DNA of 64,000 nucleotides from assembly GCA_022376465.1 (NCBI GenBank), contig JACDTU010000010.1:1364001-1428000 (forward strand), written 5' to 3'. The position numbers and the translations under genes are program-made. Source of the stretch: Cubamyces lactineus. Taxonomy: Eukaryota; Basidiomycota; Agaricomycetes; Polyporales; Polyporaceae. The notes beneath the pieces are model-generated. The model did no database searches. It was not told where the DNA came from and worked only from the letters and a program-made list of their open reading frames with translations. Of this stretch, positions 10,440 through 59,515 are shown in pieces. Within the stretch, counting starts at the first letter, position 1. The number at the start of each line of letters is the position of its first letter.

Positions 10440-11838
10440 ATGTCTTCAACTCTCGACAACATCCAGGCTCTGGAGGCGCACCTCGCGCAACTCCGGATGA
10501 AGGCGGCGGCAGAGGAGGCCGCAGCAGCCGAGGCGTAAGTACCGGGGTTGTCGGAATTCGGGGTACGGAGTTCGGACTAATGGTGGTATACAGGGCGCGA
10601 AGGGCGGAGGAAGAGCGAAAGTGGGAGGAGGAGCGAGCATGGGAGGAGAAGGAGCGCGCGGAGTACGAGGCCGCGCAAAAAGCAGCGGCGTTGATTCGCC
10701 AGGCTGCCCTCGCGAAGTCCGGGACTTCCGCGCGGGGAAGTAAGCGTCCCGCGGAGGACGAGGAGCCGGAGTCGGAGTTGGAGGAGGACGACGCGGAATT
10801 GCTCGTCCCGCGGTAAGTCCGGTCGGGGTACGGAGTACGGGGTTCAGACTAACGGAGTTCCACAGGACGAAGTGCGACCGGTGCGCCGCGAAGCAAATCG
10901 CGTGCCGGTTCCGCGCGGGCAAACAGACGTCAAGTTGCGTCCAATGCCAGAAGGCCCGGTCGCGCGCGTGCGTCGGGGCTCGCGGGCTTCCCATGGACAT
11001 TCAAGCCCGAATCGCGCGCAAGGAGGAGGCCCCAAGCCCGCAGCGCAAGAAGGTCAAGTCCGCCGCCATCGTCGTCAACGACGACGGGTTCGAGACCCCT
11101 GCGCCCACCGGAGTACGGAGTTCGGAGAAGGTGCGGGCGGACAAGGGCAAGGGGAAGGAGAAGGAGAAGACGGCGGAGAAGCCGCTGCAGCCAGGTGAGG
11201 TCCAATGGACGTTCGTAGCACCGCCCGGGATTAACCCACCAGCACGCACGGTCGTAGCCCGAGGCCCGAGCCTTGCGGGCTCGTCGACAGGCCCCCGGAT
11301 GTCCGCGAGCTCCGGACTTCCGGAGGTTGGGAAGTCCGACCTCCGGTGGTCCGACGACCCAGAGAAGCTCTCCGATCGGGAGCTCCTCGAGCACCTGCTC
11401 GTCGCGGTGCAGCGCAACCGGCGCACCGCGGGGTGGGTCATCGACCTGCTGGTTGACGAGGAGGAGCAGCGGGAGGAGATGATGCGGGAGGAGGTCCGGG
11501 GTCTTGGCGACGCCATCGCCAAGATCGTGCGGAAGGAGCTGAAGTCCGCCATCGGCGAGGCCGTCCGCGACGCGGTCAAGTCCGAACTCGCAACGGAGTT
11601 CGGTACTATGCTGCGGGAGATCCTGGAGATCACCTCGCAGGACAAGGAGGACGCGATCGCGGATGCGCTGGAGTGGGCGGGTGTGGCTGGGTCGGACTGG
11701 GAGGAGGAGGAGAGTGGGACGGGGTTGGCGGACAAGTCCGCGCGGGGCAAGTCCGGTGAGGTGGAGGAGGAGCAGGGCGAGGGCGCGAAGGAGGGAAAGG
11801 GGCCGGAGGACCCGGCAGACATGGACATGGCGGAGTAG
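10440..11838 (+). CDS. Antisense three-exon gene in G2-A: coiled-coil / Zn2Cys6-like protein, 428 aa
   Basis: Exons 10440-10534, 10594-10812 and 10866-11838, with introns 10535-10593 (59 nt) and 10813-10865 (53 nt), both GTAAGT...AG; phases join to give 429 codons including the stop. The N-terminus is a charged Ala/Glu/Arg helix, probably a coiled coil. Exon 3 opens with a six-cysteine cluster, C-x2-C-x6-C-x10-C-x2-C-x7-C, which fits the fungal Zn2Cys6 DNA-binding pattern. Next come basic stretches (RKKVK, KGKGKEKEK), a conserved-looking segment near LSDRELLEHLLVAVQRNRR, and an acidic tail. It is convergent with pol, whose stop (11943-11945) is 104 bases away. DNA binding in the nucleus is inferred. 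The gene model is supported by frame and splice signals only. Confidence 0.8.
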
Positions 11839-11942
11839 GGCGGAGTACGGACTTCGGACCTCGGACATCATAGGTAGAATTTTGTAGTCCGAGTGCGGAG
11901 TTAAGTGGAGAAATGGAGGTGAGAAAAACACCGGTGTGACCC

Positions 11943-14900
11943 TCAAGACAACTTAGCTAGAGGTCCGGGTTTGTCGGGGTAAGCAGAGTGGAAGTCCGAG
12001 ACTAGCTCCTGGGCATGTCCGAGCTCCGTGGCTAAGATCCATGAAGTTTCTTCGTCCGTACCTTCGTAGCCTGCCCATCGGACTAGGTACAGGAGTCGAC
12101 AACTCCGACGCCGGCGGTCGATCTTGGAGTCGAGGATCTCCGAAATCTCGTACTCCGGTTCTCCGTCCACCAGGATCGGAGGTGGCGGAGTTTGGACACA
12201 GCCGGGGATGGTGTTCGGAGTTGCAGGCTCGAGTTGCGAAACATGGAAAACGGGGTGTACCGCGCGCATAGTGTCCGGTAGTCGGAGGGTGAAGGAGTGA
12301 GTTCCGACCTGCGCGATGATAGTGAACGGACCTAAGAACTTCTCGGACAACTTTTTGGAAGGACGTGTAGTCCGGATGTGCTGAGCTCGGACATAGACCT
12401 GATCTCCGACCTTGAAGTCCGGTGCGGGTAGACGGTGCTTGTCTGCCTGTACTTGGTACTGGGCCTGGGCTTCGGAGATCTGCTGTCGGAGTTAGGTGTG
12501 AAGTTCGTCAAGGTCGACAGCGTAGTCGCGAGCTCGAGTGGAGGTGAGGTCCCGCTCGGGGTAGACGGAGATGGCGGGGTTGTAGCCCTTGTTCGCGAAG
12601 AACGGGGATATACCGGTAGTTGCGGACGGGGCATTGTTATACGCGAACTCCGCCAAGAGGAGGAGTTGGGACCAGTTGTCCTGCTGGTAGTTCGAATAGA
12701 TCCGGAGGTACTGCTCGAGGGTCTGGTTAACCCGCTCGGTTTGACCGTCGCCTTCCGGGTGGTAACCGGAGGTGAAGTGAAGGCGCATGTCGAGGGCCTT
12801 ACCGAGGGAGCGGAAGAAGTGAGAGACGAACTCCGAGCCCCGGTCGGAGGTAACGTGCGAGGGAACTCCGTGCTTGGAGAACACATGGAGTACAAACAAG
12901 TCCACTAACTCCGAGGCTGTAAGCGTGTCGTGGGTAGGGATGAATATGCCTTGCTTAGTGAGCCTGTCGACTACCACCAAGATCGCGGTGTAGCCAGCGG
13001 AGTTCGGGAGTTGCTCGATGAGGTCCATGGAGATGGAGTTCCAGGGTCGCTCGGGGATCGGGAGTTGCTTTAAAGTACCATAGGGAAGGTGCCGGGGGAC
13101 TTTAGCTCGCGCACAGGTAGTACAGGACTTACAGTAGTCCCGGACGAAGAGTCGAAGTCCGGGCCAGGCGTAGTCCCGCAGGACCAGGGCTTGCGTCTTG
13201 TTCTGTCCCCAGTGTCCGGCAGTAGGATGATCGTGACAAGCTCGGAGTACGCGAAGGCGGAGGTCGCCGGAGTTTGGGACATAGACTCGACCTGAGAGTC
13301 GGAGTAGTCCGTCTTCATCGCGGGACCATCGGGAGTTGCCTTCGGAGGCGAGCTTGAGTGCAGCAGATAGTTCGGGGTCAGGAGTCGGGGTTGCTTGAGC
13401 GGACTTGATGTCCGAGAGGAGTTGTTCGGAGTCGAGGATGAAGGAAGCTCGGAGTACGGGGGGTCGGAGGTAGGTAGCCCGGAGGGACGCGGCGAGCTGC
13501 TCCTGGGTAAAGACCAGTCGGTAGTTGTAAGGGTTGACGACGGAGTAGTCACTGCCCCCCTCTTTTGGGTAGACGTCCCAACGGCGTGTCAGTGCGTTGG
13601 GCTTCGCTCCAAGCTTACCTGGTCGGAACCGGACTACGAGGTTGAACTGCGAGAGGAACTCTGACCATCGGGCTTGGCGGCGGGTTAGCAACTTCGTAGT
13701 CGCGAAGTATACCAAGTTCTTGTGGTCCGTGACAACGTCGATCGGAGTTGCCGAACCTTTGAGGTAGTGCCGCCAGGTCTTGAAGCATTCGAAGATCGCG
13801 AGGAGCTCCTTGTCATGGGTGTCATAGTTCAACTCTGCGCCGGTCAAGGTGCGGGAGTGGAAAGCAATGGGGTGGAGTTCACCGGACTCGGTGGTAAGGG
13901 AGAGAATGCCGGCGATGGCGTAGTCCGAGGCGTCGGTCTCGACGGTGAGGGGTCGGTCGGGCATCCAGTGGTGTAGTACCGGAGCTGTCGTGAACGCCTT
14001 CTTGAGAGCGTTGAACGAACTCCGACATTCCTCGGAGAAGTGCCAAGGCGCGGACTTGCGGGTTAAGCGGGTCAGCGGTAGTACGATCTCGGAGTAGTTT
14101 GGAATAAACCGTCGATAGAAGTTTGCGAACCCCAGGAACGACTGTATGTCGCGGACCTTCCGGGGTTCGGGCCAATCCAAGATCGCCTTAACCTTCGACT
14201 CCGCCATGGTAAGTCCGGTGGGAGAGAGGATGTACCCGAGGTACTCGACGGAGTCGGTGTGGAACTCGCACTTGTCAGCGCGGGCATAAAGCCGGTGCTT
14301 GCGGAGTCGCCGGAGTACCTCTTTGACGTGCTTGCGGTGTTGCTCGGGGTTGTCAGAGTAGATGAGGATGTCGTCCAGGTAGACGATGACGCACACATCG
14401 AGCATATCCGCGAAGATGTCATTGACGAACCGCTGAAAGGCAGCAGGCGCGTTAGAAAGTCCGAAAGGCATGACTAACCATTCGAAGGACCCATAGCAGG
14501 TCCGAAACGCGGTCTTCCACTCATCTCCGGGAGCTATGCGGACTAGATTGTAGGCGTGACGGAGGTCAATTTTGGTATAGATCCGGGCCTTCCGAGGCGC
14601 GTCCAGCAAGTCCGAGACGAGAGGAAGGGGGTAGCGGTCCTTCCGGGTGATCTTATTCAAACCCCGGTAGTCCACGCAAAGGCGAAGAGATCCGTCCTTC
14701 TTCTTGACGAAGAGGACGGGAGCTCCGCAGGGGGAGTTGGACGGACGTATGAACCCCGAACGGAGGTTCTCGTCGATGTACTCCCGAAGCGTGTCGAGTT
14801 CGAGTTTTGAGAGAGAGTAGATAGGTCCGAGTGGCGGAGTAGCCCCTTCTTCCAGATCGATCTTCAGGTCGTAGGGGCGATGCTCCGGTAGGATGTCGGC

Positions 14901-15451
14901 CTTGGTCTTGCTGAAGACATCCGCAAACTCGTGGTACTCCTCCGGAACTCCAGTGAGGTCCGGGGGAGAGTCGGAGAAGGACGAACTCCGCGCAATAGCC
15001 AAGTCCGGAGTAGACAAATTCAGGGTATAACTCGCGGACCCCGGGAGTTTGCAAGCTCGAGCGAAAGCAGCAGCGTTCACAAGAGAGATCCGGGGTACGG
15101 AGGTCGGAGTAGGAGAAGTCGGTAGTTCCGGAGTAGACGGAGTAGACGGAGTACGCTCAGCCGGAGCTGGCGGGGGTACCATGGTGTCAGGAACAGGACG
15201 CGGCGGGGGTGCGGAACGGAATTGGATGCTGCGCTTCTTCCAGTCAATCAACGGATTGTAGGCGGAGAGCCAGCTGTATCCCAGAACGGCAGACACGGAC
15301 TTGTCGAGCGGAGTAACATAGAAATCTATATTGAGGACTTCTCCAGACGGAAAATGTACGGGCAATGAGGTAAACGAAGTAATCAGGTGGTTAGAAGTAC
15401 CATCAAAAAGCTGTAGACGGAGCGGGGTTACGGCGGTAGTTGGGAGTTGAT
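11943..15451 (-). pseudogene. pol: Pol of G2-A: truncated protease, RT, RNase H, integrase, chromodomain; one stop
   Basis: One frame runs from 15451 down to a TGA at 11943-11945, broken only by TAA at 12492-12494 (CAA or TAC expected between DELHT and LRQQIS). The protease is cut before its catalytic Asp; only the flap side remains (VLGYSWLSAYNPLIDW). RT has VYLDDILIYSD, RNase H has ETDASDYAIAG, the integrase zinc domain ends CKSCTTC, the core has SMDL, TSDRGSEF and GQTERVNQ, and a chromodomain (LYLVRWAGYEGTDEETSW) ends the protein. The missing N-terminus and gag result from the deletion at 15451/15452. Confidence 0.9.
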
Positions 15452-16541
15452 TGCAGGTTGTTGTCCATGACTCTTCTTAATTTCCTTCTCCTGAGAGACC
15501 TTGGTTTTAATAAGAGCCGGGGAGTGTGCGATGTTTGGGACCTCCTTGGTATTGTATCAAAGTGGGCACCGTGCGTGTGTGCAATTAGACCACTTCTCTA
15601 CTGATTCCTAATAGTAAATGTCCCAAACTTTGTCGGAGTCGTAGAGATGATATAGACGTGAACAACTGTATGTTCCGGGTGAACTCATACACGTTGTACT
15701 TCTCGAAGGAAAGCTTGATGTAGTTCCCTAGCTCAGAGGCAACTACAAAGTTTCCCTAGATTATATTCAAGGTCTATATCCGCGTAATTCTCCGGATTGA
15801 TCGCCTTTGCTCGTAGGTAATCAATCTGGTCTTGAAGAAAATCTGCAAAGCTATGTACCCTTTTTGGGGGTGTAGCAACTTCTCTTGGGATTAATTCAAG
15901 TGTCTGATGACTTGAGAGATGTATCAATGTGCCCGTTTGAGAGCCTCGTGATATCTTCCCATGAAGTCTTCCTGTCCCAACACTTCGAGATTGTTTGCAA
16001 TCACCTGAAGTGTGTCAATTGCGTGCACCAGAACTTGTGTCCTTCGATAGAATACTCCTTCTGTCGAGGATGTTTCTTCAACACTTGTTCCTGGAGTCGA
16101 TTGATAAAAGCTATCCGTTCCTGGACTCGCCCTTCCTGGAATGGGTACGCCTTTCGCTACCTCGAATTCCGATTGAATGGCCAGAGAATTCCTATATTCT
16201 CTCCACTCGTCTGTCCTTTGATACGCAGGTTCTTCGTCTGATTCTCGAGTGTTGTAACTCGACGAGATCATACTAGTACTCTCTGCAACAGGAATATCCG
16301 ACCTAAAACCTCTCTCCAAGGGGAATGGGGATCCTCTTGGCGAATGTGGAAGAGCAATAATACTCTCCGGGATTTCAAGTGGTGGTAGAGTCGGTAGTCT
16401 TGAATTCCTTTCGTCTAGTACCCTAGTTGATGGTCGAGAGAGGGGATATATTGTTCCCGCCATCTTGACTACCCATCTTCTTATGCGTTCGAGCAAAGAA
16501 GATATTCTCTGCGTCCAATCTTCGATGTCTTCCAACATCAC
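15452..16541 (-). pseudogene. gag: Gag N-terminal region of G1-B
   Basis: Starts at the ATG 16539-16541, 42 bases inside the 5' LTR, and runs 205 codons to a TGA at 15924-15926. Coding similarity to gag then continues in shifted frames (HSFADFLQDQIDYLRAKAIN..., later DKVWDIYY and EVPNIAHSPALIKT) with further stops. The visible part is Ser/Pro-rich with a helical end. It is the same as 49561-50650 of G1-C. The break at 15452 is the junction with G2-A. Confidence 0.7.
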
Positions 16542-16569
16542 CTCTGCACTTTAATAAGTGGAGGGGTAA

Positions 16570-16581
16570 AGCTTTCAGTCT
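16570..16581 (-). promoter_or_regulatory. Primer-binding site of G1-B (self-priming type)
   Basis: In sense, the two bases after the 5' LTR are followed by AGACTGAAAGCT, the exact complement of AGCTTTCAGTCT at the predicted transcript start in the G1 LTR. It does not begin with TGG as tRNA-primed sites usually do. Confidence 0.75.
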
Positions 16582-16583
16582 AA

Positions 16584-23036: not shown

Positions 23037-23067
23037 ATCTGCTGCTTAGCGAGGGCAGGCTAGTAAG

Positions 23068-25990: not shown

Positions 25991-26235
25991 GAAGGCCATG
26001 AGATGGGGAGACACAGTGGAAGAGTGAGCTGCAGTGGTAAGCAGATCTATGCAAAACTCTAAATTCTAGAACTAGGTGCGTCAAATGTTACGGATTGGAG
26101 CCCCACCAACTCTAGATTGTTTTATACTCTGACTTGTGATCTAGAGGCCACTCTAGAATCTAGAGTCTTATGGGAAGTCAACCAGTGAGCTAGTGGGGCT
26201 TTCCACTGCGTAACACGCACTGCTCAACAGTCCCT

Positions 26236-27516
26236 ACCTTCATAGCTTACCCATCAGACTAGGTACAGTAGTTGGTGACTCAGACGGTGGTGGTTAATCT
26301 TGACGTCGAGGATCTCTGAAATCTTATACTGTGGTTCTCTGTCCACCAGGACCGCAGGTGGCGGAGTTTGGACGTGGCCGGGGATGGTGTTCAGTGTTGC
26401 AGGCTTAAGTTGCAAGACGTGGAAAACAGGGTGTACCGCACTCATGGGGTCTGGTAGTTGGAGGGTGAAGGAGTGAGTTCCAACCTGTGCAATAATAGTG
26501 AACAGACCTAGGAACTTTTCAGACAACTTCTTGCACGGACATGTAGTCTGGATGTGCTCAGCTCAGAGATAGATCTGATCTCTGACTTTGAAGTTTGGCG
26601 GTGGTAGACAGTGCTTGTCCACCTGTACTTAGTATCGAGCCTAGGCTTTGAAGATCTGTTGTCAGAGTGGGTATGGAGTTCATTGAGATCAACAGCATAG
26701 TCACGAGCTCAAGTAAAGGTGAGGTCCCGCTTGGGGTAGACGGAGATGGCGGGGTTGTAGCCCTTGTTCGCGAAGAACGGGGATATGCTGGTAGTTGCGG
26801 ACGGGGCATTGTTGTACGTGAACTCCGCCAAAGGAAGGAGTTGGGACCAGTTGTCCTGCTGGTAGTTCGAGTAGATCCGGAGGTACTGCTCGAGGGTCTG
26901 GTTGACCCGCTCAGTTTCACCGTCGCCTTCCGGGTGGTACCCGGAGGTGAAGTGAAGGCGCATATCGAGGGCCTTACCGAGGGAGCGGAAGAAGTGTGAG
27001 ATGAACTCCGAACCCCGGTCGGAGGTAACGTGTGAGGGAACTCTGTGCTTGGAGAACACATGGAGTACGAACAAGTCCGCTAGCTCCGAGGCTGTAAGCG
27101 TGTCGTGGGTAGGAATGAATATACCTTGCTTAGTGAGCGTGTGGTGCCAGGGGACTTTAGTAGCTTGAGCAGACTTGATATCCGAGAGGAGTTGTTTGGA
27201 GTTGAGGATATAGGAGGCTCAGATTCCAGGGGGTCAGAGGTAGGTAGCCTGGAGGGATGCAGTGAGCTGCTCCTGGATGAAAAACGGCCAGCAGTTGTGT
27301 ACTGCCCCCGTCTTTTGGGTAGACAGGTTCAGGCTATAACTCGTGGACCCAGGGAGTATGCAAGGCCCAGTGAATGCAGCGGCATTTACAATGGAGTTTT
27401 GGGGTACAGAGGTTGGATTTGGAGCAGTGAGGGTTTTCAGAGTAGCTGGTGTAGATGGAGCATGCTCAGCCAGAGCTTGCAGGGGTACCATGGTGTCAGA
27501 AACAGAACACAGCAGT
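26236..27516 (-). pseudogene. Pol remnant of G2-B: integrase and fragments, RT deleted
   Basis: Matches G2-A 12043-12960 (chromodomain start and integrase core with TSDRGSEFISHFF and GETERVNQTLEQ), then jumps over three deletions to short pieces equivalent to G2-A 13087, 13393-13570 and 15017 onward. The largest deletion removes about 1.4 kb with the RT domain. The segment 26720-27135 is much less mutated than its flanks. Confidence 0.85.
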
Positions 27517-40158: not shown

Positions 40159-40179
40159 GTGCAGCTGGACAGGCCCATA

Positions 40180-41878
40180 GAAGTACCATCAAATAACTGA
40201 AGATGAATTGGGTTACGGTGGTAGTTGGGAGGTGATAATTAGACATGGATTTGGAGTTAATGAAACAGTAAGAGGAACCAGAGTTGATAAGGATGTGGAA
40301 TGGAGTTGGGATTGGATCAAAGTACAAGTCGAGGAAGAGTGCATGGCAGTTGGAAAGAGTAGACATGTTGAGCCTGAGGATCTCCATACCAGAGGAGTCA
40401 ATATGGTGATCACGGGGTATGGAGTTCAGAGGACTGTGGATTAATTTTTGTCTTCTTCAGAGCTGCAGCCGGAGCTGGCGCAGCTGGAGTGAGGTTGGCC
40501 TGGGCAGCACACCCCTTAGCCATGGACAAGGTCTTCTTCAGACAAGCACTCACAGTATGACCAGCTCTGCCACAGAAGAAACAGAGGTTGTTGGCAAAAT
40601 GATGGTGATGCTTCTTGGGGGTGAGCTTTCCATCCTTACCGAGCTTATTGGTGTATGTCTTGGCCAGTGTCTTTGGAGTCTTTGGGGACTTCAACAAAGT
40701 ACTGAAGTTGCTGGACTTGGACAGGTTAGACAAAGAGGTCTGTCCAGAGTTACTACCTCTGAACTTGTTGTCAGAGTTGGAGGACTTGGAGTTGGAGGTC
40801 AACTTGCTGCTAGACTTGGAAGGTCCAAACTCACGCAGAACCTTGGCCTTGTGCTCCCAGTAGCAGTTGTTGATTGACTGTGCAAGGTCGTGAAGGAACA
40901 CCAAGGTCTCAGGCTTGCTGTCCTTGGAGATGCAGTTCTTGAGATGGTTTGGTCGTCCATTGTGCAACCAGTACCAGAGCGGAACATTACCTCAGCAGAC
41001 TTGAGTAGCAAGGCAGGTGAAATGAGTGATATACTTAGCTATCCACTGGTTGGTTGTCACCCATTCAGAGGTTCATTAGCTCGTGCTCTGCAGCTCCAAA
41101 TGCATCATAGGATCCAAAGTTCACTCAGAGTTCCTCCTGGAAGTGCTTGTAGGACGTGAGGAAGGTAGAGGGGTTGTCCAAGTCACCTTCGAAGAGGTGG
41201 GGCTCAAACCACTGTAGTGTGGTGCCCTTAAGAAAGAGATGGTGTAGGTTGCCATCTTCTCATTGGATTCAAAGGTCCAGGGCCAGGCCTTGAAGACCAA
41301 CTTCAACTGCATAAAGAAGGACCAGAGTTTGTTGGGGTTAGATCCATTAAACTGGTCCGGCTTGTGGACATTGTCCCACTTGCTGTTCAAAGGTTGGGTC
41401 AGGGCCAGAGTTGGAGTGATAGTATGTTTGAGGGTTTGAGCAATAAGGAAGATTGTGGTAGCTAGCTGGGACTGGACTCAATATTCAGAGTCAGAGGAGT
41501 CCAAGCTAAAGTTGTTGTTGTCACTGAGGCCCTGAGGGTCTTCTGGGTCATTTTCTGGAGGTTCTGGTGGACCTGGCAGATCTGGAGGCCCACAGCTTGG
41601 ACCTGTAGGCTGATCTTTGAAGTTGAAGGGGTTCCCCAGGGATGGCTCTCAGAGTACCTGTGGTGTAGTCGCAGTTGAGATGACCAGGGGCTGAGGTTGG
41701 TCATCTTTGTTGTGGCCGTTGGAAGAACCTTCAGTAACTGTTTGAGCAAATTGATTGCAGTAGCTCAACGTAGCTGCTTCTTGTGCTGCTGAGTTGCCTT
41801 GGCAGACTGTCCAGCCACTCCAGTTCTGAGCCAGGTCTTCTTGCTTTAGGGCACAAGACTGCATCTGAGTGCAAACTA
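40180..41878 (-). pseudogene. gag: Gag and protease start of G2-B
   Basis: Gag from about 41878 to 40410 holds PDQFNGSNPNKLWSFFMQL (capsid start, ~41350) and, after a frameshift, a Lys/Ser-rich linker and the zinc knuckle CFFCGRAGHTVSAC (~40560). The protease frame (40387-40180) follows with ILINSGSSYCFI, where the catalytic Asp is Asn (GAC to AAC). This is the only gag of family G2 in the window. It is cut at a TA dinucleotide by the Tc1-like terminus at 41879. Confidence 0.8.
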
Positions 41879-42578
41879 CAGTGACTTACAAAACTATTGC
41901 CATGTTTCGCACTTTTTGAATGGGAAGGCTGTATCTCCACCATTTCTGACTCAATGACCATGATTCAACTACCAATAGAAAGGTGTGCATCCTGGCTTTC
42001 CCACGGCATGTCAATCACGTGATTTGAAGCTTTGGAAGCGGAGATATTCCCTACTCTTTGAAGCAAGTGCATGACAATAGTTTTGTTGCTGGCCCTGCTT
42101 TAGCAACAAATGTCCCCTTAGAGCGGCCATTATCACATGACTGATAGAGGAGTATCATGTGACCTCATCCTAGTTGATCTCCCATCAAAATCTGCCAGCT
42201 CATCACTTGAACCTTTACCACCACCACCATGCGACCTTTCCCTCAGCAAACTGTGAATGATCTTCTCTCTCTGCTTGACCAAGGCCTTTCCTTGAGTCAA
42301 ATCTCTACCCAAACTGGTGTCCACACCTCTACAATCAGCAAGATTAGTTCCAAACTCCGTTTCTACCTTCCAAAGTCCAAGGGAGGCTGTCCACCCAAGC
42401 TTTCTTCCACCACCATCAACTATGCACAGCGCCTTATCTGCTCTGGAGAAGCTGATACAGCTGTGGATGTCCACAAAAAGTTGGAGGATGTCTGCACAAA
42501 GCCAGTCTCCACTCAAACGGTGCGTCACCATCTCAAGAAGCATGGAATGAAGGCCGTTGTGAAGTGTAAACGCCCGCT
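41879..42578 (+). mobile_element. Tc1/mariner-like element, 5' part
   Basis: The sequence CAGTGACTTACAAAACTATT at 41879 is a typical Tc1-like terminal repeat start and follows TA (41877-41878), the expected target site, inside G2 gag. About 350 bases of leader precede the transposase start at 42229. The right half is missing: the G1-C LTR begins at 42579. Confidence 0.75.
42229..42578 (+). pseudogene. Tc1-like transposase N-terminal region
   Basis: From ATG 42229: tandem helix-turn-helix-like DNA-binding region (LSLSQISTQTGVHTSTISKI, GCPPKLS, TVRHHLKKHGMK), ~117 residues, then cut by the G1-C LTR. The catalytic domain is absent. Same reading as 6372-6692. Confidence 0.75.
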
Positions 42579-47960: not shown

Positions 47961-47965
47961 CCTGC

Positions 47966-50650
47966 CTAAAAACCTGTCTCGAAATCTGTAGCTCTGAGTG
48001 CGTTAATAGAAATATTGTCCTCTTCATCGTCACTTTCTTCATCTGAGACTTTCTCAGTCTCATCCTCCAAATCCTCCTCTGTAACCTGTTGAACCTTCCA
48101 ACTAACAGGTTTACCAGGTTTCTTGGGTTTGGAAGGACAGTCCCTGGAAATATGTCCCGGCTTCCTGCACCAGAAACATAATCTCTTGTCTTGTAACTCT
48201 TGTCTTTCCTTGACAGAGAGTTTATTAATGTCGAGTGAATCATCCTCAACATTAACTATCTTGATGTTCTTCTTTGTCTTCGAAGTTTTAGCCTTTCTTC
48301 CTTTGCGATTGGCCAAAGTTATCTCCGTAAGATGGTAGCTATGGTCGATCTCCTTTGCTTGAGTCATCCACTCCTCAATGTTCGTTGGTGGAGGATATGA
48401 CATGGAGATCTTTCTCAACAAATATTCTGGAAGCGCATTCCTGTAGAGAGCGAGTTGCGCTGCCGAGTCCAGAATATTTTCTTTGAGGGCCAGATCCATA
48501 AATCAAGCATTGAACTCATCGACTGAAGAGTAGTCTTTGAGTTGAATTGTTGTGAGATTGACCATAGAGTCGTCGACCTCGTCCACTGGAGCAAAAGCAA
48601 GCAAGAAATTTCTCTTGAAGACTGCCCAAGAGTTAAATCCTTGAAACTCTCCTGGTCTATCTCTTTTTCGGCTTGCTGGATAGTAATATCCTTCCAGTAG
48701 TTTATATTATCCCCTTCCATGAAGGATAAGGCCTTTGCCACCTTCATATAATCATTAACGAAGTCATGGGGTCTTGCTGTGAACAGAAGAAACAATTGGT
48801 TGAGGAGGGGCCTAGTTTTGTTCCAGTCTCCAGTAAAGACCTCTGGGTCCTTGATCTTGCCTTTTCCTTGCCTCTGTTCCTGCGGCCTATTATTTTCTGG
48901 GGGATTTCCTGGTTGTCCAGGCAGATCAGGGTCTGAGCCTTGTCCCAGTGGTCCTCCTCCTCCTGGTGGATAAGGACTTTGTGGTCCTCCTCCATCTGAA
49001 GGTTCAGAATCAGGTTTGCCTCCAGGTCTACTGGGTCCGCCTCCTCCTCTGCCTCCGGAAGGATTAACCATTCCTCCAAAGAATGATGTCGCCCTTGGGG
49101 CCGGTCCACTGGATGAAGACCCAAATGTCCCTCCTCTGAAAGTAGTCCTCGGAGTGAAGGCATATCTATGGGCTCCAGAAATGGATTCCCCTGTCGCCGT
49201 AATTGTTCTAGACATATATGATGGTACTAACTTCCGTATAAACTCTGGGGTTGTACTACCACTTAATTCTTCTCCTGCCTTCGGTTCAGGTACTTCAACC
49301 TTTGTCCGAATAGTTTCTTCTTCTTCCAGATGAGGTACTTCGACCGTCGTCTGAAAATTGTCTTCTTCAAAGTCTGAATCCTTCTTCTCAGGCTGTTCGA
49401 TCTCTAGCCCTTTCTCTTGTAAAGGTGGATCGGGTTCCCTGGGTGATTCAGGGTCTTGTAGTCTCGGGGTTCCTACTCTTGAAGTCAGAAACAATCCTGA
49501 CACTACTCTTGGACTAATAATCCGACTAGTACTTCCTGCTGGTAGAGGATTCTTTACTAGTGCAGGTTGTTGTCCATGACTCTTCTTAATTTCCTTCTCC
49601 TGAGAGACCTTGGTTTTAATAAGAGCCGGGGAGTGTGCGATGTTTGGGACCTCCTTGGTATTGTATCAAAGTGGGCACCGTGCGTGTGTGCAATTAGACC
49701 ACTTCTCTACTGATTCCTAATAGTAAATGTCCCAAACTTTGTCGGAGTCGTAGAGATGATATAGACGTGAACAACTGTATGTTCCGGGTGAACTCATACA
49801 CGTTGTACTTCTCGAAGGAAAGCTTGATGTAGTTCCCTAGCTCAGAGGCAACTACAAAGTTTCCCTAGATTATATTCAAGGTCTATATCCGCGTAATTCT
49901 CCGGATTGATCGCCTTTGCTCGTAGGTAATCAATCTGGTCTTGAAGAAAATCTGCAAAGCTATGTACCCTTTTTGGGGGTGTAGCAACTTCTCTTGGGAT
50001 TAATTCAAGTGTCTGATGACTTGAGAGATGTATCAATGTGCCCGTTTGAGAGCCTCGTGATATCTTCCCATGAAGTCTTCCTGTCCCAACACTTCGAGAT
50101 TGTTTGCAATCACCTGAAGTGTGTCAATTGCGTGCACCAGAACTTGTGTCCTTCGATAGAATACTCCTTCTGTCGAGGATGTTTCTTCAACACTTGTTCC
50201 TGGAGTCGATTGATAAAAGCTATCCGTTCCTGGACTCGCCCTTCCTGGAATGGGTACGCCTTTCGCTACCTCGAATTCCGATTGAATGGCCAGAGAATTC
50301 CTATATTCTCTCCACTCGTCTGTCCTTTGATACGCAGGTTCTTCGTCTGATTCTCGAGTGTTGTAACTCGACGAGATCATACTAGTACTCTCTGCAACAG
50401 GAATATCCGACCTAAAACCTCTCTCCAAGGGGAATGGGGATCCTCTTGGCGAATGTGGAAGAGCAATAATACTCTCCGGGATTTCAAGTGGTGGTAGAGT
50501 CGGTAGTCTTGAATTCCTTTCGTCTAGTACCCTAGTTGATGGTCGAGAGAGGGGATATATTGTTCCCGCCATCTTGACTACCCATCTTCTTATGCGTTCG
50601 AGCAAAGAAGATATTCTCTGCGTCCAATCTTCGATGTCTTCCAACATCAC
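47966..50650 (-). pseudogene. gag: Gag of G1-C, broken
   Basis: Runs from ATG 50648-50650 to the stop at 47966-47968, about 895 codons if frames are joined. Order: Ser/Pro-rich start (205 codons, TGA at 50033-50035), helical block HSFADFLQDQIDYLRAK, stop-interrupted middle, Gly/Pro-rich linker (~48900-49100), capsid (FTGDWNKTRPLLNQLFLLF onward, ~48800), a one-base shift near 48680, then the zinc knuckle CFWCRKPGHISRDC (~48170) and an acidic tail. Confidence 0.8.
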
Positions 50651-50678
50651 CTCTGCACTTTAATAAGTGGAGGGGTAA

Positions 50679-50690
50679 AGCTTTCAGTCT
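50679..50690 (-). promoter_or_regulatory. Primer-binding site of G1-C (self-priming type)
   Basis: In sense AGACTGAAAGCT, two bases after the LTR. Its perfect complement sits inside the same LTR at 50860-50871, about 30 bases from a TATA-like TATACAA (50898-50904, minus strand). Confidence 0.75.
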
Positions 50691-50692
50691 AA

Positions 50693-51223: not shown

Positions 51224-51585
51224 GATAGTTAGGAACCTCATAGGAACAATAAAAGATGTCTGGGATAGGAAGAAGTAGAACAAAAATATGAAAGTAAGTG
51301 CCAAAAGATATGATCTCAGAGATAGCTCAGTAAGCAGCAGCCTCATGTAGGTAGCACCACAAGGAGTTATCTAAGACATATAAGTCATGGGGTGAGGGAA
51401 AGTCCAAAGTGCATAGTGCAAACAGAGTATGTAGTGCAAAGTGCAAATGGAGTATGGGAAATGGAGCCAGGGGTAAGGGATACAGAAGTGTGGAGTACGG
51501 AAAAGCAGAGTACATAAGTATGGAGTATGGATGGAGTACGGAGGTCTGGGGTTTGGACTTCAGGGTTACAACACAGAGCATAACA
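51224..51585 (-). repeat. G2 LTR remnant
   Basis: Aligns with the right half of the G2-A LTR (about 9897-10231), ending GAGCATAACA at 51585, with many CpG-type transitions. The left half is missing where the G1-C LTR ends. Its orientation and place fit a displaced 5' LTR of G2-B. Confidence 0.8.
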
Positions 51586-52811: not shown

Positions 52812-52816
52812 GTGGA

Positions 52817-53994: not shown

Positions 53995-54256
53995 TTGTTT
54001 TACTCAGGATATGAGCCTCTTGAGCTCATTCACACTAATCTTGATGGGCCAATGCGCACTGCGTCAGTTGGTAGTGGATTCAAATACTTTGCTAGCTTCA
54101 TTGATGACTACTCTGGTCTTGCCTGTGCTTACTTCCTGAAGTACAAGCCAGACACCTTCAAAGTGTTCAAGGACTTCAAGGCTTGGGCTGAGAATCAAAC
54201 CGGGAGGAAATCAAGCAAGTCTGCTCTAATCATGGTGGGGAGTATACGTCAAACGA
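53995..54256 (+). pseudogene. Ty1/copia integrase fragment
   Basis: YEPLELIHTNLDGPMRTAS, then YFASFIDDYSGLACAYFLK and KVFKDFKAWAENQTGRK form the first half of a copia integrase core. The first catalytic Asp (HTDL) is Asn here. After a frameshift, CSNHGGEYTSN matches the second Asp region. It stops at 54256, where the G5 LTR begins. Confidence 0.8.
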
Positions 54257-55330
54257 TGATGCGTCTAACCCACCCGTAAGGGAAGGATACTACTCAGGCC
54301 GAGAGCCTTTGTAGGTCGAGGCCTGCTAGCAGGGGAGAAGGGAGAGGACGCGAAGGAGAGGGGAGGTTGGAGTCGGGTGCCCTGTGACTAGCACGGGCCG
54401 TAGTGAAGCCTAGGACCAAAAAGGGGGTGGATAGAGAGGGTTGGCGGGCCTTTGCGAAGAGTGTAAAGCTGCGCGAGAGCGCGGAGGGAGAGTTTGCGGC
54501 TTCTGCTGGGAGAGAGGAAAGAAAAGGGCAAGGGGAGAGGAGCGCAGGGTTCCGCGCGAAGACTGTTGCAACTCGCCTGACGTGGCACTCCCAATACACG
54601 TTCCGCACCTGTCCGTTTCGCCGATTTTACAGATTTCGCAGAATTTCGCAAACTTTCGCGGAGTCCGTTTTCGCAGCTTCGCGTGATTTCGCAACTACGC
54701 GGTTTTCGCCAGTTTTCGCAAGGGTCGTCGCAAGAGATTCGCAGTTCGCAGTTTCGCAAGGATTCGCAGCTCGCAGTTTCGCAAGGGTTCGCAGTTCGCA
54801 GTGTTCGCAGTTCGCAGTTTCGCAGTTCGCAGTTCGCAGATTTCGCAGATTTCGCAGGTCGTAAATATCACAACTGAGAGACCCTAAGGGTATGGGGGAA
54901 AGGGCATCTGAGTTCTCTGGCCCTCTGGGGCGTGTACTTTACAGGGGAGCGCTGTGCTACAGTCCATCAAGTCTTGGCAAGTCCGCGTGGCCTCGCCGCG
55001 AGGCTGACTCACTATGCAGCCTCTCCGCAACCTCCTATAGGCTCTGTGCTGCCCCTTGCGTGATATGGCGCCATTCCGCGAGGTTTCCGTCGGACAATGC
55101 GGTCCGTAGGTGGGCGTGACACGTCCGCGAGGTCGAGGAGATGAATGCGGGACCAGGGATGTGCGTGCGAACTGCTCCGCTCGCGCGTGAAGGGTTTCGC
55201 GAAGGTGTGAAGGCGCGAAGCGTCGCGTGGAGTCGCAGCTAGCGGGAGCAGGATTGAAGGAGAAGGAAGCGGGGATCGCGAAGTCGCGCCGGCGCTCTGC
55301 TCCGAGCCTGGGATGGCACCATGCGCATCA
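54257..55330 (-). repeat. 3' LTR of G5 (1074 bp)
   Basis: Starts TGATGCG and ends CGCATCA, a perfect terminal pair. The inner edge adjoins the polypurine complement. It interrupts copia integrase at 54256; the 5 bases before it are AACGA. Contains a block of TTCGCAG repeats at 54600-54860. No second LTR is in the window, so the outer edge rests on the inverted termini. Confidence 0.75.
54600..54860. repeat. TTCGCAG / TTTCGCAG tandem repeat block in the G5 LTR
   Basis: More than twenty copies of TTCGCAG or close variants in ~260 bases, densest at 54735-54860 (units of 7-10 bases in tandem). Confidence 0.85.
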
Positions 55331-55366
55331 TCTCCCCCTCACTGAAATCTCGACTGTCCTCAGTCG
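55331..55366 (-). other. 3' polypurine tract of G5 and adjoining conserved segment
   Basis: In sense TTTCAGTGAGGGGGAGA directly precedes the LTR. Bases 55332-55366 are repeated, 34 of 35 identical, inside pol at 61628-61662. Confidence 0.8.
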
Positions 55367-55396
55367 GTGCGACCGCGGGGTGTGGATTTACGGGCT

Positions 55397-55403
55397 TATA
55401 TAA
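55397..55403 (+). promoter_or_regulatory. TATA box of G5 antisense gene A
   Basis: TATATAA, 49 bases before the ATG at 55446, outside the LTR and on the strand opposite to pol. Confidence 0.65.
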
Positions 55404-55445
55404 CCGGCCCCATCCCCAGCGAGCCCGGGAACTGATACGCACTCC

Positions 55446-56047
55446 ATGGCGTCCTTGCGGTTTCTAGAAGCAACCTGCGAAGAACTCCTGCACGCGGTGC
55501 GCGAGCCTGCCCATACTGGAGTCCTTGGCTGCCTAGTAGCCCTGGAATTGATGCGCGAAGACTTCCTCCGCTATGGCGAGGACTGGCGAAACTGGAGGGG
55601 AGAATGGGAGGCTACTCTTGAACGGTTCCTCACAGCTTTTGTAAGCTACCCGCTGCTATTGCTTGCGCGCTAGGCTCGCTCATACTCGCTTCGCAGGAGG
55701 CTTTTGCTATGACCGCCGTGGAGAGTGAGGAAGTACTGTCCGCAATCGACCGGCTGGAGAGGGCCCTCGCTGGGCCTGTCATTGACCCTTCTCTCGCTCG
55801 CGCGACACGCAGGCGCCTCTACAAGATCACACGCGATGTTCGCGCCGCCCGAGCGAACCTCCTCCGCGCACGGCTAGATCTGTTATCGCAGCAGGCTGAG
55901 GCCATCCAACACATTGTCTTCCGCCTCCACCCTACGCCTGCAGAAGATGTGATACGGGTGCGCGGGGTGTTGGAGGGGGTATCGCGATTGGAGCGGGAGT
56001 GGCTGAGAGAGTCCTATCAAGACTGGGAGTTGCTGCGACGCGAGTAA
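55446..56047 (+). CDS. G5 antisense gene A: spliced, 181 aa, unknown
   Basis: Exons 55446-55640 and 55697-56047, intron 55641-55696 (56 nt, GTAAGC...CGCAG), phase 0. No known domain. The product is Leu/Arg/Glu-rich and mostly helical, e.g. RLERALAGPV and RLYKITRDVRAARANLLRAR. It resembles gene B in length, in intron phase and in intron position relative to the helical blocks, so the two look like tandem duplicates. It lies on the strand opposite to gag-pol, between 3' LTR and pol. Confidence 0.65.
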
Positions 56048-56196
56048 AGGGGGAAAGGGTACAGGAGCGGTAGGAAGAGTCGACGGACACGTGTAGGGGG
56101 GGCGTGGCAGGCCTCGCGGCAGGTTAGACTGGGAAGCAGGACCCGCGGCGAAATCCAGAGGGGTATTATCGATGAGATGCGAGTGATACCTGGCGG

Positions 56197-56203
56197 TATA
56201 AAT
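56197..56203 (+). promoter_or_regulatory. TATA box of G5 antisense gene B
   Basis: TATAAAT, 46 bases before the ATG at 56243; similar spacing to gene A. Confidence 0.6.
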
Positions 56204-56242
56204 GCGCGAAGCCAGTACCCCAGTCTTGCGAACCTTCGCGAC

Positions 56243-56882
56243 ATGAATACCCTCCCTGGCATCGCCGATGCAGTCGCAGGCCTCCGCCTGGAGACCGAAC
56301 AGCTCGCGCGCGATCAGTTGGAAGCTCAGGTCGCCGAGCTGGAGTTCATGCATGAATCGGAAGGCTTCGCGCCTAAGGACTGGGTCGCGGCGGTGGAGGA
56401 ATGTGTCTTTCGCTTGGTGCGACCTTCTGTCTTCGTCGCGAACCAAGGCCGCTAAACCTGTCCTGTAGCGCGCCTTCCTGTCTATCTGCCACGGATCGGG
56501 TGGAGTCGAGCCCATCTTGCAACGCATCGAAACTGCTCTTCGTCATGAGAGCCTCGCGCCAGAGCTACTTGTCAAGTTCCGCGACGGTGCCTTCCTTGCT
56601 CAGCAGGATGTCGCGCGACTCCAGTACCGCAGCGCAAGAGCTCGCTTAGCCAAGTATCGCGACGAACTCCAGAGTATGAACCAGGTGCTCTATCGCGCTG
56701 GACCAGAGCGGTTTATCTCTCTCGCGCGAACCCAAGACATCATTGTCGCGACCCATCGCCTCTCGCGCGAAGTGGACTGCAAGCTCGCGGCCTGCGAGAC
56801 GGAGGCCGGAGGCGAAGAAGGCTCGCGCGCACGCCAAAGACTTCAGGGGCGACTAGGAGAAGGGGACGGTAGGGTGGAGTAG
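56243..56882 (+). CDS. G5 antisense gene B: spliced, 195 aa, unknown
   Basis: Exons 56243-56416 and 56469-56882, intron 56417-56468 (52 nt, GTGCGA...TGTAG), phase 0. The start is the ATG just after the TATA box (MNTLPGIADAVAGLRLE). Predicted helical, Leu/Arg/Glu-rich (LQRIETALRHES, ARLQYRSARARLAKYRDEL). No domain recognised. The region just after the intron (RAFLSI..., EAFAMT in A) and the following helices line up with gene A. It could act as a small structural or RNA/DNA-binding protein; there is no direct evidence. Confidence 0.65.
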
Positions 56883-57351
56883 AGTGGCAGAGCTCTAGGA
56901 TCGAAGCCCGTAGAATAGAGTTCGAGAATGTGAGCCTCCTCCCTTCGCGCGAAAATCCCCGCTCTTTGCTCGCATGGGCCCTTGCAGGAGGATCTCGGCA
57001 GCATCGCATTGCTAGCGCCCCGCCATTGTCACTCTACTCAACCCTCCAGTCTGCATTGTCTGCGCTGCCGAGGGAGTCCGCTTGCGATGGCCCATTGTGA
57101 GAGGTGCACCGCCACCAGAAGACAATAGAGTTCGCGCGAATAGCGCCCGTCGCTAGATCGGTGTATGTCAAATAGAAGCTCGCGCAAGGCGCTTGCAGAG
57201 TTCGCCGAGTTGATTCAGGGTCATATGGGCGTGCGAAGGTGCTCGCGAAGGGGGGACATAAGAGGTGAGGGGGTCTGCGGAGTCTTGTCGCGCCCCTCTT
57301 TTCGCACTTTCTTGAGTACTCCCTTTCTTGCTTGGCTTGCCCCTCGCTCCC
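56883..57351. other. Spacer between G5 genes B and C
   Basis: GC-rich, with many TTCGCG/CGCGAA words. No open frame that fits the neighbours. It probably contains the promoter of gene C; only a weak ACATAAG (57257-57263) resembles a TATA element. Confidence 0.5.
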
Positions 57352-59515
57352 ATGTCTGCCGCCTCCTCCCCTGACCGCAAGAAGGCCATTCGCGCCGGGC
57401 GCAACACGTTCGACGAGCTCTGGAAGTGCTACCCAGAGGGTAGCGCCGAGGTAGAGGACTATGAGAGGGCCACCGCGGACATCCTCGCGGTATTGGTAAG
57501 TTCCTTCGCGGCTTGTTCCCGTCCTTCGCGCAGCTGACATCCAGGGTAGGAGGAACTAAAGGAAGCCGGCGCGAGCCCTGACCTCCTGGAGGAGCTCGTG
57601 GACCGCGTCGTGAAGGCGTCCATGGAGGTCGCGGACGCGGAGGTGTGGAAGAACCTCACCAGCGCGCCTGGCCCTTGGCACCACCCTCTCTACCGCGAGG
57701 GCTTTTACCGCCTCGCGTCTGATGAGACCATCGCAGAGCATAATAGGCGAGCAGACGAATACAATGCGGGGGTTGAAGAGCCGGAGGAGGAGGGTGAGGA
57801 CCCTGAAGTGGAGGAGGACGAGCGCGACGAGCTTGTAGGTGACGCGAGTGGGGCTAACGACCCGCAGGAAGAGGAAACCCAGGAGGAGATCTCGACCCCT
57901 GCCTCGGCGAATCGAGCTACTCGCAGCCAAGGCCGGGCCACCACCTCGCGAGCCGCGACAAGCGAGGGCAAAGGTAAGGGCAAGGAGAAGGCGGGTCCCC
58001 CTTCGCGCGCGACCGCGAAGCATCAGCGTTCCCCTTCGGCGGAGGACGAAGATGCTGAGGGGTCTGCGAAGAAGAAGGCCCCTGCTCGCGCGTCCAAGAA
58101 GGCTCGTCGCGACCCACCACCGCAGCTCCCTGCGGCCTACTATCCAGGCGCGAAGGTCCCGGACCAAGGGGTAAGTTTCCCCCTCGCTGGCTTTTCGCGC
58201 GAACTCGCTGATGTGTCTTGTAGTGCGTTCGCTGCAAGAAGAAGGCATGCGTCCTCCATGCGAATCTTCCCAAGTGCGACCAGTGCTTTTTCGACCGCGG
58301 CGGCTGCTACATTGAAGGGAACAAGTCGTACACGGAATGGTACGACAAGGAGGGGTATGACCGGGGTAAGTCGTGTCCTCGCGCCTTCGCGAACTGCGCT
58401 AACTTCGCCTGCTTCCTCTGTCTAGCCATTCGCGTCGCCGCGGAGACTGCCTCCGAGATCATGGCGCAGCGCAACACTCGCGAGAGTGACCTCCCGCAGT
58501 ACGTGAAGGACTTTCGCAAGGGGAAGGTAGGCAGCAAGGAGCCGGAAGTGCGCCCTGCCGCATCCTCCGCCTCCTCAGCAAAGCCAACTCCATCTGGGTC
58601 CGCTAACAAGCCGCGCCCCCGCCCTGCTGCCAAGGTTGCGGAGGGGAAGGCAGTCGCGACTCCGCGGGTGGTTACCCCCGTAGCGGGATCCTCTTCGCGA
58701 CCCAATCGCGCCTTCGTCCTAGTAAGTCGCTGACAGTTGCCCTCTTGCGTACAGCGCTAAACTGACTCCCCTAGTCCCAGGTGACTCCCGCCGCTAGTGT
58801 GGCGTCGCACGGTCGCAACTCTGTAGAGACTCCGAGTAGGCCCCCTGCGAGTGCTGCGAGACCATTGGTGGCTGACTCCCCGGCAGTAGGTGTGCCGGCT
58901 GTCGTCTCCTCCGCTCCTCGCGTCGCAGCACCTCGCGCGTCGCTCCCCGCTGCGCCCGCTGTCCGCGCGAGTCCTCGCAACCCTGCCACGCAACTCTTCG
59001 CGCAGGTCCCTGCCGTCGCAAACCCTGCGCCTGTTCCGCCGCCTACCCTCGCGAACAACCCTTCCCTGCCTCTGCTCCCTCCGCTGCCGCCTCCGCTGGT
59101 GCTGAACCCTGCTCCGGCCTACCTCACCTCGAGCCCGCCGGGCGTGCAGATGGTCGACGCCTTCCTGGAGGACGAAACCGCGCGGTTCCGCCAGCTCATG
59201 GGCGGGTACCTTCAGCAAGCGCTCCGCTGGCAGAACGACCTTCGCGAAGCATACTCTGCGGCACTGCCCAACGTCACGAACATCGGGGCACTCCACATCA
59301 CTGCCCTCCGACTCGAGCGCGACTTCGCGAGCGCGCGCTGCCAGGCCTACGGCGCTATCGCCTCCGACCAACATCAGCGCATCCAGCAGTTGATCACGGA
59401 GCTCGTTCGCCTCAACCCGGAGATGTACCCGAACGGTGCGCCGCACCCGGACGGTCCTGAGGGTGGTGCTGGCGCGAGTGCAAGCGCCGCGGCGGGCTCC
59501 GGCTCGCGAAACTAG
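57352..59515 (+). CDS. G5 antisense gene C: five exons, 647 aa, Cys6 cluster protein
   Basis: Exons 57352-57495, 57550-58170, 58224-58365, 58426-58721 and 58775-59515; introns of 54, 53, 60 and 53 nt, all GTAAG...AG, and phases join without a stop. The N-terminal ~100 residues look globular (GRNTFDELWKCYPEGSAEVE). An acidic region follows, then KGKGKEK and a basic KKAPARASKKARR stretch (nuclear-signal-like). Exon 3 encodes C-x2-C-x4-C-x8-C-x2-C-x6-C, close to the fungal Zn2Cys6 pattern (first spacing 4, not 6). A Pro/Ala-rich linker leads to a C-terminal helical block (RFRQLMGGYLQQALRWQ to LITELVRLNPEMYPNG). Convergent with pol, 513 bases away. A DNA-binding role is inferred. Confidence 0.75.

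Follow-up and report, generated by a model that had tools for sequence, protein, structure and literature searches.

The window analyzed here is a 64,000-nucleotide stretch of Cubamyces lactineus DNA, and it holds copies of two LTR retrotransposon families, G2 and G5, each with one or more additional genes on the strand opposite gag-pol, in the interval from pol to the 3′ LTR. The G2 copy is laid out as follows.

9526-10231, minus strand (the orientation of gag-pol): 3′ LTR, placed by BLASTN against the LTR of the copy L032
10369-10375, plus strand: TATA-like box of the antisense gene, 71 nt upstream of its ATG, within the element and outside the LTR
10440-10534, plus strand: antisense gene exon 1, from gene model and copy comparison
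10594-10812, plus strand: antisense gene exon 2, from gene model and copy comparison
10866-11838, plus strand: antisense gene exon 3, with a six-cysteine cluster, a basic stretch and a long coiled coil
11946-15451, minus strand: pol, with RT, RNase H, integrase and chromodomain end, truncated at 15451

The three exons, separated in the window copy by introns of 59 and 53 nt, encode a product of 428 amino acids. The window 3′ LTR aligns with the L032 LTR at 92% over 706 columns (BLASTN), and the match to L032 stops at 15451, short of gag and the 5′ LTR; other G2 copies have both LTRs. Assignment of pol is based on Pfam matches in 12493-15182 and in the homologous L032 pol, and the window pol has an in-frame stop at 12492-12494. 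In L032 the Pfam domain order is protease, RVT_1, RNase H, H2C2, rve and Chromo, the chromodomain match has an E value of 6.9e-6, above the Pfam cut-off, and the two LTRs are identical, 694 nt long and flanked by 5-nt target duplications. The G2 RT motif is YLDD. With domain order, chromodomain, LTRs and target duplication all present, G2 is a Ty3/gypsy LTR retrotransposon of the chromovirus type. The G5 copy carries three antisense genes, A, B and C.

54257-55330, minus strand: 3′ LTR, with edges reading TGATGCG...CGCATCA
55446-55640, plus strand: gene A exon 1, from gene model and copy comparison
55697-56047, plus strand: gene A exon 2, from gene model and copy comparison
56243-56416, plus strand: gene B exon 1, from gene model and copy comparison
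56469-56882, plus strand: gene B exon 2, from gene model and copy comparison
57352-57495, plus strand: gene C exon 1, from copy comparison
57550-58170, plus strand: gene C exon 2, from copy comparison
58224-58365, plus strand: gene C exon 3, with the cysteine cluster CX2CX4CX8CX2CX6C
58426-58721, plus strand: gene C exon 4, from copy comparison
58775-59515, plus strand: gene C exon 5, from copy comparison
60029-63391, minus strand: pol region, with integrase pieces, RNase H and an RT

Gene A (two exons, intron of 56 nt) encodes 181 amino acids and gene C (five exons, introns of 54, 53, 60 and 53 nt) encodes 647. In gene B (two exons, 195 amino acids) several GT-AG intron choices preserve the frame, and the 52-nt intron chosen here yields a protein 98% alike, over its full length, to a 195-residue Trametes cubensis protein. 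Gene B is probably a paralogue of A, judging from an intron that occupies the identical alignment column in phase 0. TATA-like boxes lie 49 nt upstream of the start of A and 46 nt upstream of that of B, and a search before the start of C found none; the boxes of the G2 gene and of A adjoin the 3′ LTR. The RT motif of G5 is YIDD, and the Pfam matches in its pieces are RNase H, then H2C2 and a weak rve (E 0.016), with no chromodomain in the three pieces scanned and no RVT_1 match in the piece scanned. The second LTR of the window copy lies beyond the window (G000:C2:1431166-1432637), and all five G5 copies have LTR pairs. By its gypsy domain order and two LTRs, G5 is also a Ty3/gypsy LTR retrotransposon.

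The initial annotation had described these four genes as antisense and convergent with pol (pol on the minus strand, genes on the plus strand), with three, two, two and five exons, introns of 52-60 nt and TATA-like boxes 46-71 nt before the starts of the G2 gene, A and B, in elements of differing RT type (YLDD with chromodomain, here via L032, versus YIDD with none found). This description holds, and the genes are real by comparison with other copies, in which starts, frames and splice sites are mostly kept. The G2 antisense gene has at least 42 matches in the window's own genome, and G5 has five copies there with all three genes. The start codon and both donor sites of the G2 gene are kept in 21/21 copies examined and the full frame is intact in 15; among these 15, intron 1 ranges from 51 to 61 nt, while exons differ in length by multiples of three. 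Both introns are present in all 21 copies, as the annotation had expected, since introns of antisense genes outlast reverse transcription of the genomic RNA. Genes A and B are intact in 5/5 copies and C in 4/5. Frames are also kept beyond this genome, with relatives of the antisense proteins in Trametes cubensis and Cubamyces (Polyporales). The dN/dS comparison proposed with the annotation gave values well below 1 for all four genes, ~0.06-0.24 at informative divergence, and the antisense frames show third-position bias; within G5 subgroups the values are higher and uncertain owing to few changes (A 0.35-0.72, B 0.10-0.66, C 0.19-0.47). A pol dN/dS for L026 versus L032 was left out, since a deletion in L026 distorts the alignment. 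Of the three outcomes that the annotation named as refuting, two, frames kept in no other copies and dN/dS near 1, did not occur. The antisense genes of G2 and G5 are thus conserved, under purifying selection, spliced and protein-coding.

Ten of the retrieved G2 copies have LTRs that are 99% alike or more, and nine of these keep the antisense gene intact; L028 (136-bp LTR match) and loci whose stretch has no second LTR do not enter this count. Capture of a passenger gene by a single copy is rejected on these intact copies together with the at least 42 matches. The exception, L022, has LTRs 99.7% alike and a broken antisense gene, and therefore the gene seems not to be required in cis.

What kind of protein does the G2 gene encode? 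Zn2Cys6 proteins share the six-cysteine pattern CX2CX6CX5-12CX2CX6-8C, and the cysteines of the window protein, CX2CX6CX10CX2CX7C, fit it, with a long coiled coil downstream. All six cysteines are preserved in the proteins P0002 and P0003, and P0001 is without the region. A search with a model of the cysteine region returned seven PDB matches, all of them Gal4-type Zn2Cys6 with weak scores; a search of solved structures by sequence gave no useful match. The annotation's designation of these as Zn-cluster genes is borne out in part: the G2 cysteine pattern agrees with it, and the fold search, at its weak scores, gave Zn2Cys6 domains only, but the Pfam profile Zn_clus (PF00172) matched none of the four proteins and four A1 members with E values as high as 10 allowed, in a search limited by HMMER filters that discard most matches above 0.1. 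In G5-C the spacing departs from the Zn2Cys6 pattern, one of the six cysteines is missing from the protein P0004, and the modelled region has a low mean pLDDT of 52. When hhalign is given the cysteine regions of G2 and G5-C, it aligns them with a probability of just 0.7 out of 100 and an E value of 0.075, values that decide neither for nor against a common origin; acquisition more than once, or long ago, which the annotation thought probable, is one possibility.

Each element is studded with a short word of its own, in coding regions as well as outside them, a feature that the initial annotation had missed.

9526-15451, both strands: CGGRST-studded zone of G2, 122 sites
54258-64000, both strands: TTCGC-studded zone of G5, 130 sites, counted to the window edge

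In 200 dinucleotide shuffles the G2 zone has a mean of 22.8 CGGRST sites (maximum 34) and the G5 zone a mean of 32.1 TTCGC sites (maximum 45); the counts were made in the very elements that had served to discover the words. Densities are ~21/kb for CGGRST in G2 versus 1.2/kb in window positions 16601-54000, and 13/kb for TTCGC in G5 versus 0.8/kb in that interval. The loci L045 and L046, considered as a distinct third family in which a different binder might go with a different word, proved to be incomplete and decayed members of G2, with 85-93% likeness to it. CGG is the half-site of Zn2Cys6 proteins. The G5 word is not CGG, which is a counter-point to the proposal that follows.

We hypothesize that the product of the G2 gene acts in the nucleus as a DNA-binding protein of Zn2Cys6 type, that it would dimerize through its coiled coil and recognize CGGRST along its own element, in LTRs and coding regions, and that this recognition may mark every family copy, in trans, for activity, whether by transcription or by anti-silencing. 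G5 would follow a like principle through gene C, with A and B as helical partners and TTCGC as its word, and the proteins of both families would then be self-recognizing nuclear regulators, VANC-like in logic. We infer both the binding and its effect, and assign a rough probability of 0.5 to the reading that the antisense proteins bind their own family word and so activate or protect family copies. A more specific form is offered tentatively, as doubtful: that antisense Zn2Cys6-type proteins of fungal gypsy elements recognize a word written throughout their own element, including synonymous pol codons, with a separate word for each family, and constitute a retrotransposon counterpart of the plant VANC system with family-only action.

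Could the studding arise with no DNA-binding partner, as an RNA-level signal or a compositional or mutational habit (packaging, codon habit, CpG richness)? This is unlikely but has a real chance of being correct. Both words hold CG and both elements are CpG-rich, with observed/expected ratios of 1.19 (G2) and 1.06 (G5) versus 0.87 in window positions 1-9500 and 0.45 in 16601-54000, and the G2 word has a strand bias (136 vs 44) that is partly base skew, with G skew on that strand. However, the two elements have no words in common at equal GC, and outside the LTR the G5 motif is unbiased by strand (27/26 and 25/21). Synonymous shuffles speak on both sides. The word excess in G2 pol surpasses shuffles that preserve codon usage, but several G5 ORFs are without excess: relative to synonymous shuffles, TTCGCG has no enrichment in genes A and B or in the integrase ORF, and a mild one in the RT ORF (12/1000 synonymous shuffles). 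Retention of TCGCR sites in G5, for its part, exceeds that of permuted words that contain CG. When the best of all 6-mers is taken, the leading words in gag and in the antisense CDS of G2 fall below the 95% level of synonymous shuffles, G5 RT only matches it, and G5-C lies above it in the window copy and not in L043; one of five control ORFs (48415-49215) is just above. Retention of G2 sites between L026 and L032 is mildly high at 89.4%, with 10/132 control words as high.

A different hypothesis is that the proteins regulate only at the LTR or promoter, in the manner of HBZ or maize Grande gene23, and that the studding is unrelated. Place and strand are indeed those of antisense accessory genes as described in PMC7264820, two of the TATA-like boxes adjoin the LTR, and among the regions tabulated CGGRST density peaks in the G2 LTR (33/kb), save for a 110-nt gap. 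Yet the word is also dense, at 16-21/kb, in gag, pol and the antisense gene, hits all reading frames of pol and is separate for each family, and we regard an LTR-only role as quite unlikely. That the antisense RNA rather than the protein is functional, through dsRNA or transcriptional interference, has been suggested for other elements (PMC7264820) and would suit genes convergent with pol, but it is highly improbable given the low dN/dS of all four genes, the third-position bias and the triplet exon changes beside an intron 1 of variable length. Extremely improbable is a true gene in the form of a sense env-like ORF, of which the antisense frame would be a shadow. On the gag-pol strand of L032 a 500-codon stop-to-stop stretch does lie over the gene, and dN/dS is low in the mirror frame too (0.14-0.20 across three G2 pairs); however, the antisense dN/dS is lower in 6/6 comparisons, the mirror frame has stops in 5/6, splice sites are kept, and the spliced B protein matches its T. 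cubensis relative end to end. The shadow ORF was discarded on these frame tests and on the varying intron lengths, which would shift a sense frame.

The proposal of self-recognizing antisense proteins can be set against known systems. VANDALs are DNA transposons, and HBZ of HTLV-1 is spliced and a bZIP protein rather than a Zn-cluster one. The Arabidopsis VANC proteins are described as element-encoded, with a dense family motif (YAGTATTAY; AGTTGTCC/AC) in their own element (PMC5735166), and G2 and G5 are similar in having a dense, family-specific short motif in an element that encodes a candidate binder. As described there, VANC motifs lie mainly in noncoding tandem repeats, whereas the G2 and G5 words also occur in gag, pol and the antisense genes. 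HBZ, in the account of PMC11963269, offers the likeness of an antisense regulator at the 3′ end of a retroelement, a role that is predicted for G2 and G5; the HTLV antisense promoter is placed inside the 3′ LTR (PMC7264820), in contrast to the TATA-like boxes of G2 and G5 outside it.

Plant elements with antisense accessory ORFs include Grande (gene23), RIRE2, Retand (with TRP28) and PvRetro13; an own promoter and a nuclear protein are reported for Grande, and DNA binding is predicted for TRP28, in sections of PMC7264820 and PMC11963269. G2 and G5 share with these, as there described, an antisense gene between pol and the 3′ LTR that is kept in most copies, and differ in their basidiomycete host, in having one to four introns per gene and three genes in G5, in the Zn2Cys6-like appearance of the G2 protein and in a family word that runs through the element. 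In fungi, the Boty-like retrotransposons of Botrytis cinerea are described as carrying an antisense gene, brtn (PMC7264820, PMC8365987), likewise an extra gene of a gypsy-type element; the host is an ascomycete, unlike that of G2 and G5, and the likeness is by description only, not by sequence. The arrangement per se is already known from these plant elements and from Boty. The annotation was aware of no described basidiomycete counterpart, and we found no basidiomycete case of an antisense gene in a gypsy element in the literature searched, which is not proof of absence; its claim to novelty needs narrowing because brtn, a fungal gypsy-type case, is already in print. In a survey of chromoviruses from fungi, Agaricomycetes among them, a figure legend names an additional ORF of unknown function, and the word antisense is absent from the text (PMC2864245).

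The role of antisense accessory genes of LTR retrotransposons is described as unknown in the reviews PMC7264820 and PMC11963269. G2 and G5 each combine, within one element, a candidate DNA-binding protein with a candidate target word, and the word differs between the two families. With protein and word in the same element, and with ~40 matches (G2) and five copies (G5), the question becomes testable by a simple binding assay. The studding of pol further suggests that retrotransposon coding sequence may be shaped at synonymous sites to carry a recognition code.

The four antisense genes that the initial annotation described in two Ty3/gypsy families, G2 and G5, were confirmed at their positions on the plus strand, opposite to gag-pol, with introns of 52-60 nt. 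The TATA-like boxes proposed for the G2 gene and for G5 genes A and B were found 71, 49 and 46 nt upstream of the respective starts, and no such box lies upstream of the start of gene C.

Antisense genes and element parts
10440-11838, plus strand: G2 antisense gene, three exons, 428 aa
Plus strand: G5 gene A, two exons, 181 aa
Plus strand: G5 gene B, two exons, 195 aa
Plus strand: G5 gene C, five exons, 647 aa
9526-15451: window G2 copy, from the 3' LTR to 15451 only
12492-12494: in-frame stop in the pol of the window G2 copy
54257-55330: G5 LTR, 1074 nt
C2:1431166-1432637, outside the window: other G5 LTR, interrupted, 99-100% alike over the matched parts

A search of the genome (36.3 Mb, 43 contigs) with the G2 gene returned at least 42 matches, some of which are pieces of a single copy, and 31 of the 42 span query position 10 or earlier through the end. 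Inspection of the 20 best-scoring matches together with the window's own copy (n = 21) reveals that the start, both donors and both introns are present in all 21, that, in the alignment, 41 of the 42 acceptors are CAG, and that the full frame is kept in 15. Among these 15 intact copies, exon lengths differ by multiples of three only and intron 1 measures 51-61 nt. All six G5 introns are present in five of five copies. The prediction that such introns would be retained is sound and is borne out in these copies, since a sequence that is an intron on the antisense strand is not one in the genomic RNA and so survives retrotransposition. The dN/dS comparison that had been proposed as a check gave 0.06-0.21 for the G2 gene over 21 pairs of seven intact copies, with one exception, 0.44, in the pair with the lowest dS; G2 pol gave 0.08 (window versus L032, another G2 copy). 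The G5 copies fall into two subgroups separated by dS of 0.6-0.86, between which dN/dS is ~0.23 (A), 0.10 (B) and 0.22 (C). Inside the subgroups, which differ by few changes, dN/dS is higher and reaches 0.72. Moreover, the opposite-strand mirror frame, aligned third position to third position with the gene, has higher dN/dS in six of six comparisons and stops in five of six.

The closest named proteins in a protein database comparison come from Trametes cubensis, a member of the Polyporales, and Cubamyces sp. With the proposed splicing, the B product aligns end to end with a 195-aa T. cubensis protein (98%) and also matches a Cubamyces protein (88%); both are database proteins without genomic context. 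A and B share 24% identity (BLASTP E 1e-5, a single comparison) and a phase-0 intron in the same alignment column, with first exons of 195 and 174 nt, and from these sequence features they are probably paralogues.

Each element is studded with a short word. The strongest 6-mer in the 8.3-kb L032 is CGGAGT (80 observed versus 23 expected under a trinucleotide model), and the wider form CGG[AG][GC]T, or CGGRST, has 180 sites there, one per 46 nt, with a strand bias of 136 to 44. Against 200 dinucleotide shuffles, the window G2 copy holds 122 CGGRST (mean 22.8, maximum 34) and G5 holds 130 TTCGC (mean 32.1, maximum 45). The crossed counts are 19 TTCGC in G2 (shuffle mean 13.6) and 22 CGGRST in G5 (28.5), and therefore, at equal GC, each element carries its own word only. 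Window positions 16601-54000 contain 1.2 CGGRST and 0.8 TTCGC per kb. CGGRST occurs at 16-36 per kb across the G2 LTRs, gag, pol, antisense gene and gene-pol gap, and the G5 word at 8-27 per kb by region, with no strand bias of the G5 word outside the LTR. Among seven regions tabulated, the only one without a CGGRST site is the 207-nt LTR-to-gene stretch (L032, oriented, 1294-1500). The window counterpart of this stretch contains the TATA-like box.

The word is present in G2 pol in all three frames and on both strands. Synonymous codon shuffling gave expectations of 9.8, 4.1 and 1.7 CGGAGT for G2 pol, gag and antisense CDS, versus 39, 9 and 6 observed (reached in 0, 3 and 0 of 1000 shuffles). 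In G5, TTCGCG is in excess in gene C (12 versus 4.1, 0/1000) and mildly in RT (8 versus 3.5, 12/1000), with no excess in A, B or the integrase ORF. In a stricter test that scored the best of all 6-mers, G2 pol reached 9.4, whereas the highest of 200 shuffles was 6.4. For G2 gag and the G2 antisense CDS the top word fell below the shuffles' 95% level, and G5 RT equalled it; gene C lay above it in the window copy (6.2 versus 5.1, with a highest shuffle of 6.3), though not in another G5 copy, L043. One of five control ORFs elsewhere in the window was just above (48415-49215, 5.0 versus 4.9). In oriented positions 1501-6500 the density is 18-21 words per kb in 17 of the 20 G2 copies and ~9, about half, in the other three (L021, L023, L029), whose GC is lower, a pattern that C-to-T decay of old copies would produce.

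Retention in G5 was measured between the window copy and its three diverged copies, with pooled permuted words containing CG as controls. Outside exons and the tandem repeat, 57% of TCGCR sites are kept (56-58 of 98-102) versus 32-35% of controls, and in exons 62-65% versus 40-42%; 0-3 of 38-40 control words per comparison are as well kept. TTCGC outside exons is less clear (41-43% versus 24-34%; 1-2 of 6-7 controls as high). For the G2 word, retention between L026 and L032 is weakly raised (89.4%, where the median is 84.4% and 10 of the 132 control words reach that level).

What might read these words? Gal4, Hap1, Ppr1 and other proteins of the Zn2Cys6 class bind to CGG triplets. The G2 word starts with CGG, and the matches of the G2 protein model, weak in score, are of the Zn2Cys6 class only. 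On the most economical view, the antisense protein would bind the word throughout the element that encodes it. Since coding and noncoding parts both contain the word, the bound protein may mark the chromatin of the entire element rather than drive a single promoter. One G2 copy, L022, has LTRs 99.7% alike but a broken antisense gene, which suggests that the protein acts in trans. We give this combined mechanism a probability of about one half. The proposed marking resembles that by VANC of Arabidopsis, where one protein is reported to recognize a densely repeated short motif, with loss of silent marks (PMC5735166, PMC10398659). A clear difference is that the VANC motif is described there as lying mainly in noncoding tandem repeats (PMC5735166), whereas the G2 and G5 words also lie in coding parts. 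A strictly VANC-like version is put forward only tentatively, as a putative and less probable form.

Antisense accessory genes have already been described, and therefore the present arrangement is not a new kind; the papers on them call their function unknown and suggest that TRP28 of plant Retand binds DNA (PMC7264820, PMC11963269, PMC8365987). One figure legend in a fungal chromovirus survey mentions an extra ORF of unknown function (PMC2864245). A literature search covering mostly papers outside subscription found neither a basidiomycete example of such antisense genes nor a description of word-studded coding regions.

The gene sits ~207 nt inward of a 694-nt 3' LTR in the other G2 copies and is directed towards pol. 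Of the 20 fetched loci, 15 have a second LTR-like repeat, in some cases a short or partial match, and 5-nt target duplications are readable in all eight loci printed. Stop to stop, L032 has a gag of 500 codons and a pol of 1265 codons terminating in a chromodomain. A paralogous stretch, L045 1-309, lacks the G2 insertion of L032 and represents an empty site, where the two L032 flanks (480-601 and 8918-9110) adjoin with a 6-nt overlap. In L038 (oriented; 1-1293 and 7624-8917) the repeat runs ~600 nt past the LTR, which would fit a tandem of two G2 elements with one LTR in common. The window also contains fragments related to G2 pol, its gag side and its LTR, 73-88% identical to L032, at 26230-27300, 40178-41882 and 51227-51585.

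Two flanking LTR matches were found in five of five G5 copies, with spans of ~13.5 to 18 kb. In the window copy an in-frame TGA (60965-60967, minus strand) splits the integrase region, even though the matched parts of its LTRs are 99-100% alike. Many more G5 LTR matches are split by additional sequence into two blocks (~73-75% and 83%), and some of them form closely spaced pairs; these matches (for example C34:501-7865, C41:1334621-1337890 and C40:456581-457889) are perhaps short non-autonomous relatives.
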